A stretch of 12,985 bases of DNA from contig DATEAK010000151.1 of NCBI GenBank assembly GCA_035288405.1, forward strand, positions 1 to 12,985. The letters run 5' to 3'. Within the stretch, counting starts at the first letter, position 1, and the number at the start of each line of letters is the position of its first letter. This document shows, piece by piece, positions 2,968-11,453 of this stretch. A program made the translations under genes and the position numbers. This stretch comes from JACPSX01 sp035288405 [NCBI: bacterium] (GTDB lineage Bacteria; JACPSX01). The notes below the pieces were generated by a model. The model did no database searches. It saw only the letters and a list, made by a program, of their open reading frames with translations, and was not told the origin of the DNA.

Positions 2968-4137
2968 TTAAAGTTGCCGGTCGACTAAAAGAGCATTGGC
3001 ATGGGCGACGATACCGACCCCTCTTCCCACAAAGCCGAGGCCTTCCGACGTTTTAGCCTTGATGCTGATCCGATCCGGAGCAAGCTCAAGCGTCTCGGAA
3101 ATCTTGCGGATCATCGCGGGAACGTAGGGAGAAAGACGAGGCGCTTCCGCAATCACCGTGCAGTCCACGTTCACGATCTTGTAACCTCGCTCGTTCAAAA
3201 TTCTCCTGACTCTTGAGAGCAAGTCGAGGCTCGAGATACCGGAAAACTGTGGATCCGAATCGGGGAAATGAGTACCTATATCCCCTGCGGCCGCGGCCCC
3301 TAACAGGGCATCACTTAGAGCATGGAGAAGAACGTCCGCATCGGAGTGGCCCTGAAGCCCCTTGTCGTGGGGAATCTCTACGCCACCGATCACGAGTTTG
3401 CGGCCGCTGACCAAGCAATGGACGTCGTAGCCCTGCCCGATCCTTACACTCCCCTCCTTTCTCAAGTATTTCTCCCCCCAGAGCAGATCTTCGGTGGTGG
3501 TGATTTTTATATTGGAAGAAGATCCCGGAACTACTTCCACCGTCTGGTCCAATCGTTCCACTAAACTAGCCTCGTCCGTTCCCAAAATCTGATCTTCTTG
3601 AGCCCTTCTTAGAGCCTCCAACAAAATCGCCCTACGAAAGACCTGGGGTGTTTGGGCACACCAGAGACCGTCCCGAGAGAGCGTACCCACGCAAGCGCCC
3701 CGGCGGTCCACCTTCTTGAGAGTGTCCGCCAGAGGAAGAGCAGCAATGGCGGCGCCGCATCGGAATGCCGCTTCCAAGGTGCGGACCAGAAGGTCCTGGG
3801 TCAAAAAAGGGCGCACGCTGTCGTGGACCAGAACAAACTCACTGTCCACCCGGGTCCTGAGCACCCCGGCTTGAACTGAATCTTGGCGCCTCTCCCCGCC
3901 AGGAACCAGCTCGGCGAGCTTGCTGAATGGGTATGCTGAAAGGATACTCTTCCGGCAATAATCGACGCGCTGCGGAGGAACCACGAGGATAATTTCCTCG
4001 ATGAGCGGGCACTCTTCAAGGGCTTGGAGCACATGGACAAGAACCGGCTTTCCCGCCAAAGGGTGGAACTGTTTTTCGATCTCTCCCCCGAATCGGCTCC
4101 CTCGGCCGGCTGCCGGGACGACGGCCGCGGCCCTCAT
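2968..4137 (-). CDS. ispDF: Bifunctional MEP-pathway enzyme IspD/IspF
   Basis: A fusion of 2-C-methyl-D-erythritol 4-phosphate cytidylyltransferase (IspD, residues about 1-225) and 2-C-methyl-D-erythritol 2,4-cyclodiphosphate synthase (IspF, about 231-389), two non-consecutive steps of isoprenoid precursor synthesis. IspD shows the CTP loop [12 protein letters not shown] (7-18), KQF (22-24), VHDSVRP (104-110; usually VHDAARP), TPQVFR and TDEASLVE. IspF shows the metal site D238xH240 in [23 protein letters not shown] (264-281, H272), GDIGTHFPD and [11 protein letters not shown]. Total length of 389 aa fits known IspDF fusions, found for instance in alpha- and epsilonproteobacteria and some deltas. 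ATG at 4137 has AGGAG about 9 nt upstream and is 21 nt past the yacL-like stop. Both active sites look intact. Confidence 0.96.
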
Positions 4138-7506: not shown

Positions 7507-8934
7507 ATGATGACCAGCAAACTCTACTGGCCTTGGATCAAGAATCTCAACCCGGTCAAGAAATTCGCTCTAACCTCCCTGGGCTGCATTTTGATTCTTG
7601 TTCTAACTTTTTCCCTCCTGATCTCCCATTTTCTCACCCGCACCATGCTTGCAAGGGAAGGAGAGGTAACGACCGATTTCATCCGGGCCATGGTCGGGAA
7701 GTTTCTCACTCCCGAAGACTTTCAGGAACCCCTGACCAGCAACCAGGACCGAAAATTCCAGGAGTTTTTCAAGGAAATAAGGCAGATTCCCGAGCTGGTT
7801 CGGATCAAGGTGTTCAGCCCGACGGGAACAATTTTCTGGTCGGACGAACCGGCACTCATCGGAAAGTCCTTCCCCGGTAACAGAGAACTGAAAGAAGCTG
7901 TCCTCGATAAAATCCAGGTTCAGCTGGAATTCCCGGGAGATTCTTATCACGTTAACGAACGCAAATTCGGTTGGCTCACTGAAATTTACGTTCCGATCTT
8001 GTCTCCGCACGGAAACCGAGTCATTGCAGTTATTGAAACTTATAAGCGACCCTCAAGACTGCTCGCGATCCTCGGATCGGCCCGTAAACTGGTTTGGCTT
8101 ATCGCCCTGCTGGGGGGATTGTTCCTCTACCTGTGCCTGTACAAAGCATTCAAGTCATCCTACGAGCGCCAAAAAGAGCTGGAACAGCAAATTGTAGAAG
8201 TCGAACGCCTGGCCAGTAAAGGGCAGCTGGCTGCTGAAATCGGGCACGAGATCAACAATTATCTGACCGTACTCAACGGTAATCTTGAGGTCCTATCCGG
8301 CGAACTCGACGGCCACCGTCCTCCCAACACGGAGAAACGCATGAGGACTATTCAGGAATACCTCGACAAAATGACCCGTTTCACGAATGGACTCCAGGAT
8401 CTGAGCCATTTGGGAACCAGACCCTCCCCATGCCAGCTCAACGATCTTCTTACCAGCCTGGTGGGCTTTGTGAAGCCCCAAAACCGGTTTGACAACATCA
8501 ACATCGTGATCGAATCCTCTCCGGAACTTCCCCGGATCGAAGTGGACGAGGTCCAAATGCAGCAGATCTTCCTCAATCTTCTCTTAAACGCGGCAGAGTC
8601 CATTCGGGACTCGGGAAAGAAGAGCGGCACGATCCGGATCACCACGCAATTTGACACGAGCCGGGATTCGATCGTCATGTCCGTGCAAGACACGGGGTGT
8701 GGGATCGAGCCTGATTGCCTCGAACGGATATTCGAGCCTCGATACACAACCAAGAAAGATGGCCATGGGTTTGGCCTGGTAGCCTGTCAGACGATCGTCA
8801 CCAATCACCAGGGTTCGATCCAGGTTGCCAGTAATCCCGGTAAGGGATCTACCTTCACCGTTTTACTCCCCCGCAAAGAACCAGCTGCAAAGAAAGCCCG
8901 CCTGTTCATTGACAGCACCGAGCAGTCGTGTTAA
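7507..8934 (+). CDS. Membrane sensor histidine kinase (orphan)
   Basis: 475 aa. The order is a short cytoplasmic tail, TM1 (about 22-43), an extracytoplasmic sensor of about 150 residues (about 44-190, Cache-like size, fold not assigned), TM2 (about 194-213), a charged coiled-coil linker (217-240), the phosphoacceptor helix with H247 in GHEINNYL, and a HATPase_c domain: N-box LNLLLNAAESI (356-366), G1 DTGCGI (395-400), F-box IFEPRYTTK (408-416), G2 GHGFGL (419-424). It should autophosphorylate on H247 and pass phosphate to an unknown receiver. The GHEINN H-box and terminal layout resemble NtrB-like/HPK4 kinases. No DNA-binding response regulator is nearby; the only receiver is CheY, 2.1 kb downstream. 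ATG at 7507 (or 7510) has only a weak ribosome binding site, while a strong one precedes an out-of-frame ATG at 7473. Confidence 0.93.
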   Translation: MMTSKLYWPWIKNLNPVKKFALTSLGCILILVLTFSLLISHFLTRTMLAREGEVTTDFIRAMVGKFLTPEDFQEPLTSNQDRKFQEFFKEIRQIPELVRIKVFSPTGTIFWSDEPALIGKSFPGNRELKEAVLDKIQVQLEFPGDSYHVNERKFGWLTEIYVPILSPHGNRVIAVIETYKRPSRLLAILGSARKLVWLIALLGGLFLYLCLYKAFKSSYERQKELEQQIVEVERLASKGQLAAEIGHEINNYLTVLNGNLEVLSGELDGHRPPNTEKRMRTIQEYLDKMTRFTNGLQDLSHLGTRPSPCQLNDLLTSLVGFVKPQNRFDNINIVIESSPELPRIEVDEVQMQQIFLNLLLNAAESIRDSGKKSGTIRITTQFDTSRDSIVMSVQDTGCGIEPDCLERIFEPRYTTKKDGHGFGLVACQTIVTNHQGSIQVASNPGKGSTFTVLLPRKEPAAKKARLFIDSTEQSC

Positions 8935-8972
8935 AAGGGCCCAACACCCCTGCGGAGAATTTGGCGAGCCTC

Positions 8973-9974
8973 ATGGATGCGATAAAGGCTACTCCGATTT
9001 CAGATGTGGGCCCGATTGCCATTGGCCACGCCTCCGATTTCACCCACTACACAGGTTGCACGGTGATCCTCTGTGAACAGGGAGCTGTCGCTGGGGTCGA
9101 GGTGCGAGGGCTGGCCAGCGGCACGCGTGAGACGGACGCCCTCTCGACCTGCCACCTCGTGGATAAGATCCACGGTCTTCTCCTGGCAGGAGGGAGCGCA
9201 TTCGGACTGGAAGCGGCTGCAGGGGTCATGGACTACCTGGAGGAAAAGGGGGTTGGATTCCAGACCACCACGGGCCCTGTACCGATCGTCCCCTGTGCGA
9301 TCCTCTATGACTTGAACTTTGTCTCCCGTCTGGTTAGACCCAACCGAGCCATGGGATATGCGGCTTGTCTCAATGCGTGTGCGGCTCCCCCCCAGGAGGG
9401 GAGTGTAGGCGCCGGCACCGGGGCGACGGTCGGAAAACTCTTTGGCATCGAACGGGCCACCAAAGGAGGATTGGGGGTCGCTTGTTACCAAATTCCGGGT
9501 ACGGGAGTTCTCGTGGGGGCTTTGGCCGCAGTGAACGCGTTTGGAGACATTCTCGACCGGCACACCCAGAAGATAATCGCGGGTGCCCGTGTTGCGCATG
9601 ACAGCCACTGTTTCGTAGGCACCGCCCGGGAAATGATGAGAGGGATTACACGTACGGACTTTGCGAACACCCATACCATCCTGGGCGTCATCATGACCAA
9701 TGCAGCTCTCGACAAACGGGGGGCCACCATCTTGGCCCGCCTGGCCTCCAATGGACTGGTTCAGGTCAGCTCACCCGCCTCCACAACATTTGATGGGGAC
9801 GTGGTCTTCGCCCTTTCCGTAGGAAACATTTCCGCCGATATCAATGTGTTGGGCGTTGTGGCTGCCGAAGCTCTCTCCGAAGCGATCAACCGGGGAGTGC
9901 GCAAGGCAAATGGTTTCGGAATTCTCCCCTCCCATCTAGAAATCGCTAGCCGGCAGGGAGCCGAGCAGGGATGA
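8973..9974 (+). CDS. P1-family peptidase (DmpA/NylC-like, self-cleaving N-terminal nucleophile hydrolase)
   Basis: 333 aa from the ATG chosen. Family S58/P1 members (DmpA aminopeptidase, BapA, nylon oligomer hydrolase NylC) mature by cutting their own chain to expose a Ser or Thr nucleophile. Here ISDVGPIAIGHA (9-20) with GCTVIL gives the family N-terminus, LAGGSAFGLEAAAGVMDYLEE (71-91) and GSVGAGTGATVGK (143-155) the glycine-rich core, and NTHTILGV (232-239) followed by MTNAALD matches the cleavage region; T233 or T235 is the likely nucleophile. The substrate is unknown; small peptides or amides are typical. No signal peptide is seen. The frame opens at GTG 8928, overlapping the kinase stop, but ATG 8973 fits the family start better. 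It overlaps cvpA by ATGA, so the two are translationally coupled. Confidence 0.88.
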   Translation: MDAIKATPISDVGPIAIGHASDFTHYTGCTVILCEQGAVAGVEVRGLASGTRETDALSTCHLVDKIHGLLLAGGSAFGLEAAAGVMDYLEEKGVGFQTTTGPVPIVPCAILYDLNFVSRLVRPNRAMGYAACLNACAAPPQEGSVGAGTGATVGKLFGIERATKGGLGVACYQIPGTGVLVGALAAVNAFGDILDRHTQKIIAGARVAHDSHCFVGTAREMMRGITRTDFANTHTILGVIMTNAALDKRGATILARLASNGLVQVSSPASTTFDGDVVFALSVGNISADINVLGVVAAEALSEAINRGVRKANGFGILPSHLEIASRQGAEQG

Positions 9975-10656: not shown

Positions 10657-10698
10657 GCAAATCCTCCCGAGGCTCGACAATGGAACGGAGCGAATCCA

Positions 10699-11055
10699 AT
10701 GGCCCAAAGCAAAACCCCTCAGCCGGGACCAGGAAAACCAAGCTCTAAATCCCAAACAAAAGGTCCCGAAGTTCTAGCGAAGCAACCGATTTCTTCACCA
10801 GCCCCCGCTGCAGGCAGCGAGGCTTCTCCATCCAACGATGAGATGGATTCTAAGGTGTTGCACGATCTCACCCAAATGGTCAAGGCGATGTCCGAGGGGG
10901 ACTTCTACCGGGAACTGAGCATCAAGGTGGAAGAAGGAACCGAACAAACGTTGGAAATGAAGGCGGAGATCATGAGCAAGCTGGAGGGGCAAAACACAAT
11001 CGGCGAACTTCGCCAGGATTTGGTCGATGAGATCCTTGCCCAGTTGAACGGGTAG
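10699..11055 (+). CDS. Small unassigned protein upstream of cheY, with a CheZ-like C-terminal CheY-docking tail
   Basis: 118 aa; I do not recognise a named family over the full length. Residues 1-48 are a Pro/Ser/Lys-rich disordered stretch. 49-97 is an acidic amphipathic helical region ([22 protein letters not shown] and on). The last 14 residues are [15 protein letters not shown]. coli CheZ ends SQDQVDDLLDSLGF, the helix that binds CheY-P; the shared pattern is QDxVD[DE][LI]LxxL. FliM N-termini (SQAEIDALLNG) use a related CheY-binding motif. CheY starts 20 nt downstream, so a CheY-P partner or phosphatase is a good guess. The CheZ catalytic D-x3-Q pair is not clearly present: there is DLTQ, with D and Q three apart, not four. 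ATG 10699 has GGAG 8 nt upstream. Coding is supported by the start signal and neighbours; function is inference. Confidence 0.75.
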
Positions 11056-11075
11056 GTAAGAGGAGGCACTTGCCA

Positions 11076-11453
11076 ATGGATTTGAACATAAAGATCCTTA
11101 TCGTTGACGATTTCTCGACCATGCGGAGGATTGTGAAAAACCTGCTGCGGCAGCTTGGTTTCAACAATATTCAGGAAGCCGATGATGGTACGACAGCTTT
11201 GGAGCAGCTCAAGACGGACCCTGTGGATCTGATCATTTCGGACTGGAACATGCCCAAGATGACCGGACTCGATCTGTTGAAAGCGATCCGGGGAGATGAC
11301 AAGTTAAAAAAGATCCCCGTCTTAATGGTCACCGCCGAGGCAAGAAAAGAAAACATCGTTGAAGCCGTCCAAGCAGGCGTGAACAATTACATTGTAAAAC
11401 CGTTTACGGCGGAAACGTTGAAAGAGAAAATGGAAAAAGTCCTTACCCCTTAA
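11076..11453 (+). CDS. cheY: Chemotaxis response regulator CheY
   Basis: 125-aa single-domain receiver. Phosphorylated CheY binds FliM at the flagellar switch and changes rotation. All key residues are present: acidic pair D11-D12 in VDDFSTMRR, phosphoacceptor D56 in [10 protein letters not shown]86 in MVTAEA, switch aromatic Y105 in NNYIVKPF, and K108. It is strikingly like E. coli CheY ([35 protein letters not shown]), so a true flagellar CheY is likelier than a generic receiver. A TTG at 11070 is only 3 nt from AGGAGG; ATG 11076, at 9 nt, is the better start. It sits 20 nt after the 118-aa gene and away from cheA, cheW or flagellar genes in this window. Its stop overlaps that of panC on the other strand. 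Confidence 0.96.

Follow-up and report, generated by a model that had tools for sequence, protein, structure and literature searches.

Escherichia coli CheZ (PDB 1KMI chain Z; PF04344) is a protein of 214 aa that combines a dimeric four-helix phosphatase bundle with a C-terminal CheY-docking helix. Docking takes place on the alpha4-beta5-alpha5 face of CheY, the terminal Phe of CheZ being important for it, and the affinity of FliM for CheY is lower than that of CheZ. The N-terminal CheY-binding motif of FliM, a motor protein, is likewise a short helix-type segment and reads LSQ(D/E)E(I/V)(D/N)ALL in the seven FliMs that we compared. PMC7750401 divides E. coli CheZ into an N-terminal helix (1-34), the bundle (35-168), a linker (169-199), and a C-terminal helix (199-214). 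For Azorhizobium CheZ, it describes the N-terminal helical region as sufficient for polar localisation, several regions being redundant. PMC1447658 places the main CheY-P affinity of CheZ in the short C-terminal helix, which is held on a flexible tether.

The nearest known architectures to that of the protein analyzed here, the product of gene X (hereafter X), are a HAMP-CheZ protein from Nitrospirae bacterium NC_groundwater_891 (L062:8511-9182) and the CheW-HAMP-CheZ type fusions of loci L096 and L190-L193. In the L062 protein, a Pfam HAMP domain (31.6 bits, cut-off 25) is directly followed by PF04344 (78.6 bits). The fusions (L096:976-2151, L190:973-2103, L191:1042-2202, L192:1042-2181, and L193:1045-2211) join CheW-like and HAMP-like parts to a full CheZ and lie beside cheY; Pfam confirms both CheW and CheZ on L096, L190, and L193, and L191 and L192 were assigned by reading the sequence. 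Variant surroundings of the CheZ active site, FQDLVAQ and YQDAARQ instead of FQDLTGQ, with the DxxxQ spacing kept, were also seen (L162, L167, L168, L169, L171, L174, L175, L182, and L183, plus L083:1495-2163).

X shares with the HAMP-CheZ and CheW-HAMP-CheZ proteins a HAMP-like head (AMSEGDF or a close variant), a docking tail, and a cheY neighbor, but the HAMP-CheZ proteins have a PF04344 region with DxxxQ and X has neither. It further differs from them in its Asn-Gly ending, in a 44-residue unstructured N-terminus that is not found in the L062 protein, and in gene order, as X lies upstream of cheY and the HAMP-CheZ genes downstream. The observed basis of our interpretation is two matching segments in CheZ order, with the catalytic region absent (Table 1).

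Table 1 Features of gene X and the adjacent cheY, in coordinates of the window.
Feature	Position	Strand	Basis
Purine-rich stretch GGAACGGAG ahead of gene X, likely ribosome-binding	10682..10690	+	Read from sequence
Gene X, core-less CheZ relative	10699..11055	+	ORF, coding statistics, HAMP-CheZ model 25.6 bits
Residues 1-44, Pro/Ser/Lys-rich N-terminus, no predicted structure	10699..10830	+	Sequence; single-sequence model (low confidence)
Residues 45-79, HAMP-like head common to HAMP-CheZ proteins	10831..10935	+	21.4 bits, HAMP-CheZ model
Residues 80-95, expected place of the second HAMP helix, same length	10936..10983	+	Similarity not above chance
Residues 102-118, CheZ-type CheY-docking tail (predicted)	11002..11052	+	Tail profile 22.1 bits; pairwise identities
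GAGGAGG, likely ribosome-binding site of cheY	11060..11066	+	Read from sequence
cheY	11076..11453	+	Pfam Response_reg 1.3e-33; NCBIfam CheY equivalog 2.3e-54

The window, i.e., the whole stretch of DNA analyzed, is 12,985 nucleotides long, and its ORF listing gives gene X an ATG start and a product of 118 aa. The location that the initial annotation had given for this ORF, directly upstream of cheY, proved exact, with 20 bases between the stop codon and cheY. By codon usage, X looks like a real coding gene: its in-frame codon score is 0.23 bits per codon, compared with −0.50 to 0.07 for the five remaining frames, and falls inside the range of 11 other window genes (0.17-0.41), which served both as the training set of the score and as the comparison set. 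Its GC3 (0.61) can likewise be set beside the 0.58-0.69 of these 11 genes. Scans around X were uninformative, with no sigma-70-like promoter (1.0 expected) and five terminator-like sites (3.0 expected). A single-sequence structure model, too poor to use (mean pLDDT 55), places no helix before residue 47, at low confidence.

The neighbor was also correctly read as a true CheY, its product scoring 115.9 bits with Pfam Response_reg and 183 bits with the NCBIfam CheY equivalog, just below the 189-bit cut-off, and sharing 66-75% identity with the CheY proteins of the 80 retained loci. A Pfam scan of 13 window proteins pointed to chemotaxis only for CheY, and none of the 13 was recognized as a CheY phosphatase. 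The histidine kinase at 7507-8934 is of the ordinary two-component type, and cheY is followed by panC on the opposite strand. Upstream of X, a Peptidase family S58 gene (8928-9974, + strand) is flanked by the histidine kinase gene and by a CvpA (Colicin V production) gene; no link to chemotaxis was seen. Elsewhere in the window, a 389-aa fused IspD-IspF is encoded on the minus strand (2968-4137; Pfam IspD 211.5 bits, YgbB 223.3 bits) in a run with PIN/TRAM, RadA-like, CysS, and SpoU-methylase genes and four tRNAs.

RadA of the window was compared with sets of 198, 22, 118, and 10 genomes and reached its best identities, ~58-60%, in both the phylum of genome G012, recorded as Nitrospirae, and that of genome G002. 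A quick, unfinished tree groups the window, on a long branch, with rows of the G012 phylum (SH-aLRT 89), while the most identical single row (L102, 60%) belongs to the phylum of G002 and the nearest rows by tree path are others. The best bit score came from G455, whose class of ten genomes includes five with CheW-HAMP-CheZ type proteins (G433, G475, G441, G448, and G424); the second best, G446, lies outside that class, and the next two, with equal scores, come from the phylum of G002. As these signals conflict, phylogenetic placement was not used as evidence on X.

The similarity of the C-terminus to CheZ, on which the initial annotation had built, was borne out, although the terminal Gly-Phe is replaced. 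A tail profile was built from 48 distinct CheZ tails, X excluded, from loci found in CheY, X, and Pfam CheZ searches; all of them end in G[FLI] because the collecting pattern demanded that ending. X scored 22.1 bits on this profile, a value reached by none of 200,000 shuffles and by only one of 5,790 other C-termini (L083), the next best scoring 10.9. These C-termini were those of six-frame ORFs of at least 90 aa, many of them non-genes, from which ORFs with the usual CheZ core and those of the window had been removed. L083 is itself CheZ-like, with a HAMP-like head and the YQDAARQ core, and falls below the cut-offs of both PF04344 (25.3 bits, cut-off 30.7) and HAMP (21.3 bits, cut-off 25). 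In pairwise comparisons, the last 17 residues of X are identical at eight positions to the CheZ tails of L062 and L168 and at seven to that of L192 (no shuffle in 100,000 as high in each case), at seven to L083 (4/100,000) and the gamma-type CheZ of L005 (32/100,000), and at six to L096 (35/100,000). X ends in Leu-Asn-Gly, i.e., with Asn-Gly in place of the terminal Gly-Phe (or Gly-Leu/Ile) of CheZ tails.

The FliM motif had also been named as close to this tail, and it is, with the same Q...(D/N)..L spacing. A regular-expression search found no FliM in the loci gathered until then, and the seven FliM loci used for comparison were taken from 8 genomes. Their N-terminal motifs resemble the X tail (similarity 16-26), on the whole less than six CheZ tails do (25-38), with a slight overlap. 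Judged by its sequence, the tail of X is a predicted CheZ-type CheY-P docking helix, beyond a chance match. This mixture, a tail that is CheZ-like in its body but FliM-like at its end, where the terminal Phe is lacking, suggests that docking might be weaker and more reversible than that of CheZ.

A second landmark of the CheZ lineage, absent from the initial annotation, was found at residues 45-79. The first helix and the GD turn of HAMP-CheZ proteins are present in this segment, and residues 46-76 are identical to the L062 CheZ at 16 of 31 positions (0/100,000 shuffles as high). In the fusions of L096 and L190, the stretch matching the X head lies between the CheW domain and CheZ, with HAMP below the cut-off; the sequence of L193 is alike, yet Pfam lists no HAMP there at E ≤ 0.001. 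The following residues, 77-95, share only 4 of 19 positions with L062, a level reached by 8,818 of 100,000 shuffles, and only the first half of a HAMP is therefore recognizable in X. Pfam HAMP (PF00672) gave no match for residues 46-118 at E ≤ 10 or for the whole of X at E ≤ 1.

Between head and tail, the phosphatase core is missing. A first CheZ model, made from 18 sequences, aligned its positions 171-218 with X residues 22-74 and 360-398 with 75-115, skipping 219-359; none of 5,000 shuffles scored as high as X. As the CheW domain of fusion proteins was part of this model, 116 of 6,049 other ORFs scored at least as high as X; these were apparently CheW-type proteins and CheZs missed by the filter pattern. 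The model was replaced by a CheZ-only model of eight sequences (L062, L095, L096, L190-L193, and L203), on which X matched in two pieces, 45-79 and 94-115, with nothing between and no shuffle in 10,000 scoring as high. Of 6,137 ORFs scanned with this model, a score was obtained for 3,101 that lack the usual core pattern, and only L083 (73.8 bits) exceeded X; the longer frame of X itself scored 24.7 and the next ORF 20.2. A full-length MAFFT alignment placed the central part of X differently, against the helix that follows the active site. Our placement of the segments rests on the local models, which we preferred over the full-length alignment and over a two-sequence alignment that misplaced the tail.

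Both models thus skip the core, and neither the four-helix bundle nor, anywhere in X, the DxxxQ catalytic motif was found. On the CheZ model, no other window ORF of at least 30 aa scored above 5.0 bits; the bundle is therefore absent and not merely in another frame. A profile search against PF04344, proposed in the initial annotation as a check, returned nothing for X at E ≤ 1 or for residues 46-118 at E ≤ 10, and the CheC, CheX, and FliY phosphatase families gave no Pfam match at E ≤ 1 either. As it has no PF04344 match, bundle, or DxxxQ, X is most probably not a minimal CheZ phosphatase, and on these defining features of its sequence it should not be filed as a CheZ phosphatase. The idea of a minimal or divergent CheZ stands as to kinship, given the head, the tail, and their right order, and is not supported as to a working phosphatase, for which the DxxxQ bundle is missing. 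We infer that the other option raised for this gene, an adaptor tethering CheY, would be the best remaining one.

Relatives of X were sought at several scales. A pattern search of genome contigs and searches of viral contigs and plasmids returned no ortholog. With X as the query, 6 of 14 genomes gave matches at E ≤ 1, the best being the L062 CheZ (1.0e-5) and L083 giving a weak one (0.049). Searches with X alone in 395 genomes from the phylum of G002 and 295 from that of G012 returned eight places at E ≤ 0.01. The three in the phylum of G012 (1.0e-5, 1.8e-5, and 0.007) are all CheZ and match X on its N-terminal side, not at the tail; the first two, the best of all eight, are matched at the head. 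Of the five in the phylum of G002 (L090-L094), L092 is a CheZ-tailed protein with an FQDLSGQ core; among the six weaker places, L092 and L096 are likewise CheZ genes matched at the head. The remaining four (L090, L091, L093, and L094) do not look like CheZ; they match mainly the Pro/Ser-rich low-complexity N-terminus and show no CheZ core in the DNA examined.

A head-and-tail profile, built to favor short forms, was then run on 395 genomes from each of the two phyla, in which it matched 230 genomes of the G012 phylum (E ≤ 0.01) and 58 of the G002 phylum (E ≤ 3e-4). A short form with both pieces would be expected to rank near the top of these matches; no X-like short form was present among the matches listed, which for the G012 phylum reach down to ~3e-4. 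All frames among them were of at least 200 aa, except a 49-aa piece in G425 just behind a 210-aa CheZ frame. Numerous long frames are matched by the profile as well, some of them with repeats at regular intervals, which is expected of a HAMP-like segment. Frames of ~1,800-2,400 aa matching the head (G434, G555, G589, G595, and others), several with matches 276 bases apart, are probably poly-HAMP proteins. PF04344 itself was found in 75 of 118 genomes of the G012 phylum at E ≤ 0.001, 70 of which pass the cut-off. In 17 of 30 CheZ loci of this phylum, cheY lay within the examined flank, and cheZ followed cheY in all 17. No core-less CheZ or HAMP-CheZ appears in the titles and abstract openings of the papers listed by searches of an open-access library. 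X has no known ortholog of the same short architecture, and there is therefore no sign of selection keeping the short form.

With moderate confidence, we read X as a CheZ-derived, core-less CheY-docking protein that would hold or buffer CheY-P and would have arisen from a HAMP-CheZ by loss of the bundle. The ancestor would have had a HAMP-like head, a four-helix phosphatase bundle, a linker, and a CheY-docking tail, the bundle being lost thereafter. The C-terminal helix of X would bind the same face of CheY-P as CheZ and FliM do, and the HAMP-like head might pair with itself or with a partner, such as a component of the receptor array or the cell pole. In this way, X could compete with FliM for CheY-P, which it would hold or buffer but not dephosphorylate. 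The cheY gene beside X, as beside cheZ in the 17 loci above, counts for CheZ descent. Counting against the core-less docking reading are the single occurrence, the four of eight X-only places that do not look like CheZ, the unrecognizable second HAMP half and missing Pfam HAMP match, the missing Gly-Phe, the poor structure model, the MAFFT placement, and the lack of a sigma-70-like promoter in the scan.

The strongest rival is a decaying cheZ, in which an in-frame deletion would have removed the bundle and left a remnant drifting without a function of its own. It stays a serious rival because no ortholog of the same architecture is known: X occurs once, with no short form among the matches listed for the 395 + 395 genomes, and its last two residues and second HAMP half have diverged. 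However, the frame is open, codon usage and GC3 are normal, the ribosome-binding sites are plausible, the tail still scores 22.1 bits, and X has a 44-residue N-terminus for which the L062 HAMP-CheZ offers no counterpart; we consider decay unlikely on balance.

X could also be a CheY-binding adaptor unrelated to CheZ, its tail being convergent as in the FliM N-terminus and its head an ordinary HAMP fragment. The resemblance of the FliM motifs to the tail (16-26) would fit such convergence, as would the many long non-CheZ frames matched by the profile head, which by length and repeat spacing are receptor-, kinase-, or poly-HAMP-like. Yet the best whole-genome places for the X head are CheZ genes, head and tail stand in CheZ order, and the six CheZ tails score 25-38, making an unrelated adaptor improbable. 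An assembly or sequencing artefact, in which a misjoin would have removed the bundle from what is really a normal HAMP-CheZ gene, is less probable again: the join would fall between domains, but it would also have to be in frame within a gene that is coding-like, and X precedes cheY, whereas cheZ follows it in the 17 cheY-cheZ loci. Least probable of all is a true minimal phosphatase with a different catalytic arrangement, which the frequent cheZ position beside cheY and the lack of another recognized CheY phosphatase among the 13 window proteins would suit, but which the missing DxxxQ and bundle and the lack of a Pfam match to CheZ, CheC, or CheX at E ≤ 1 speak against.

Returning to the core-less docking protein, we put forward only tentatively, as a possibility we hold to be doubtful, that this lineage turned a CheY-P phosphatase into a non-enzymatic CheY-P holder, in which a dimeric HAMP-like head with free CheZ tails would buffer or position CheY-P against the motor, replacing or counterbalancing signal termination. 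If true, such a holder would be the equivalent, in chemotaxis, of a pseudophosphatase. In CheZ, an active site that binds loosely goes together with a tethered docking tail; a natural protein with such a tail but no active site would uncouple docking from catalysis and would allow a test of whether motor switching is shaped by the holding of CheY-P alone. The HAMP-CheZ and CheW-HAMP-CheZ type proteins suggest a direct coupling of signal termination to receptor-type modules in some lineages.
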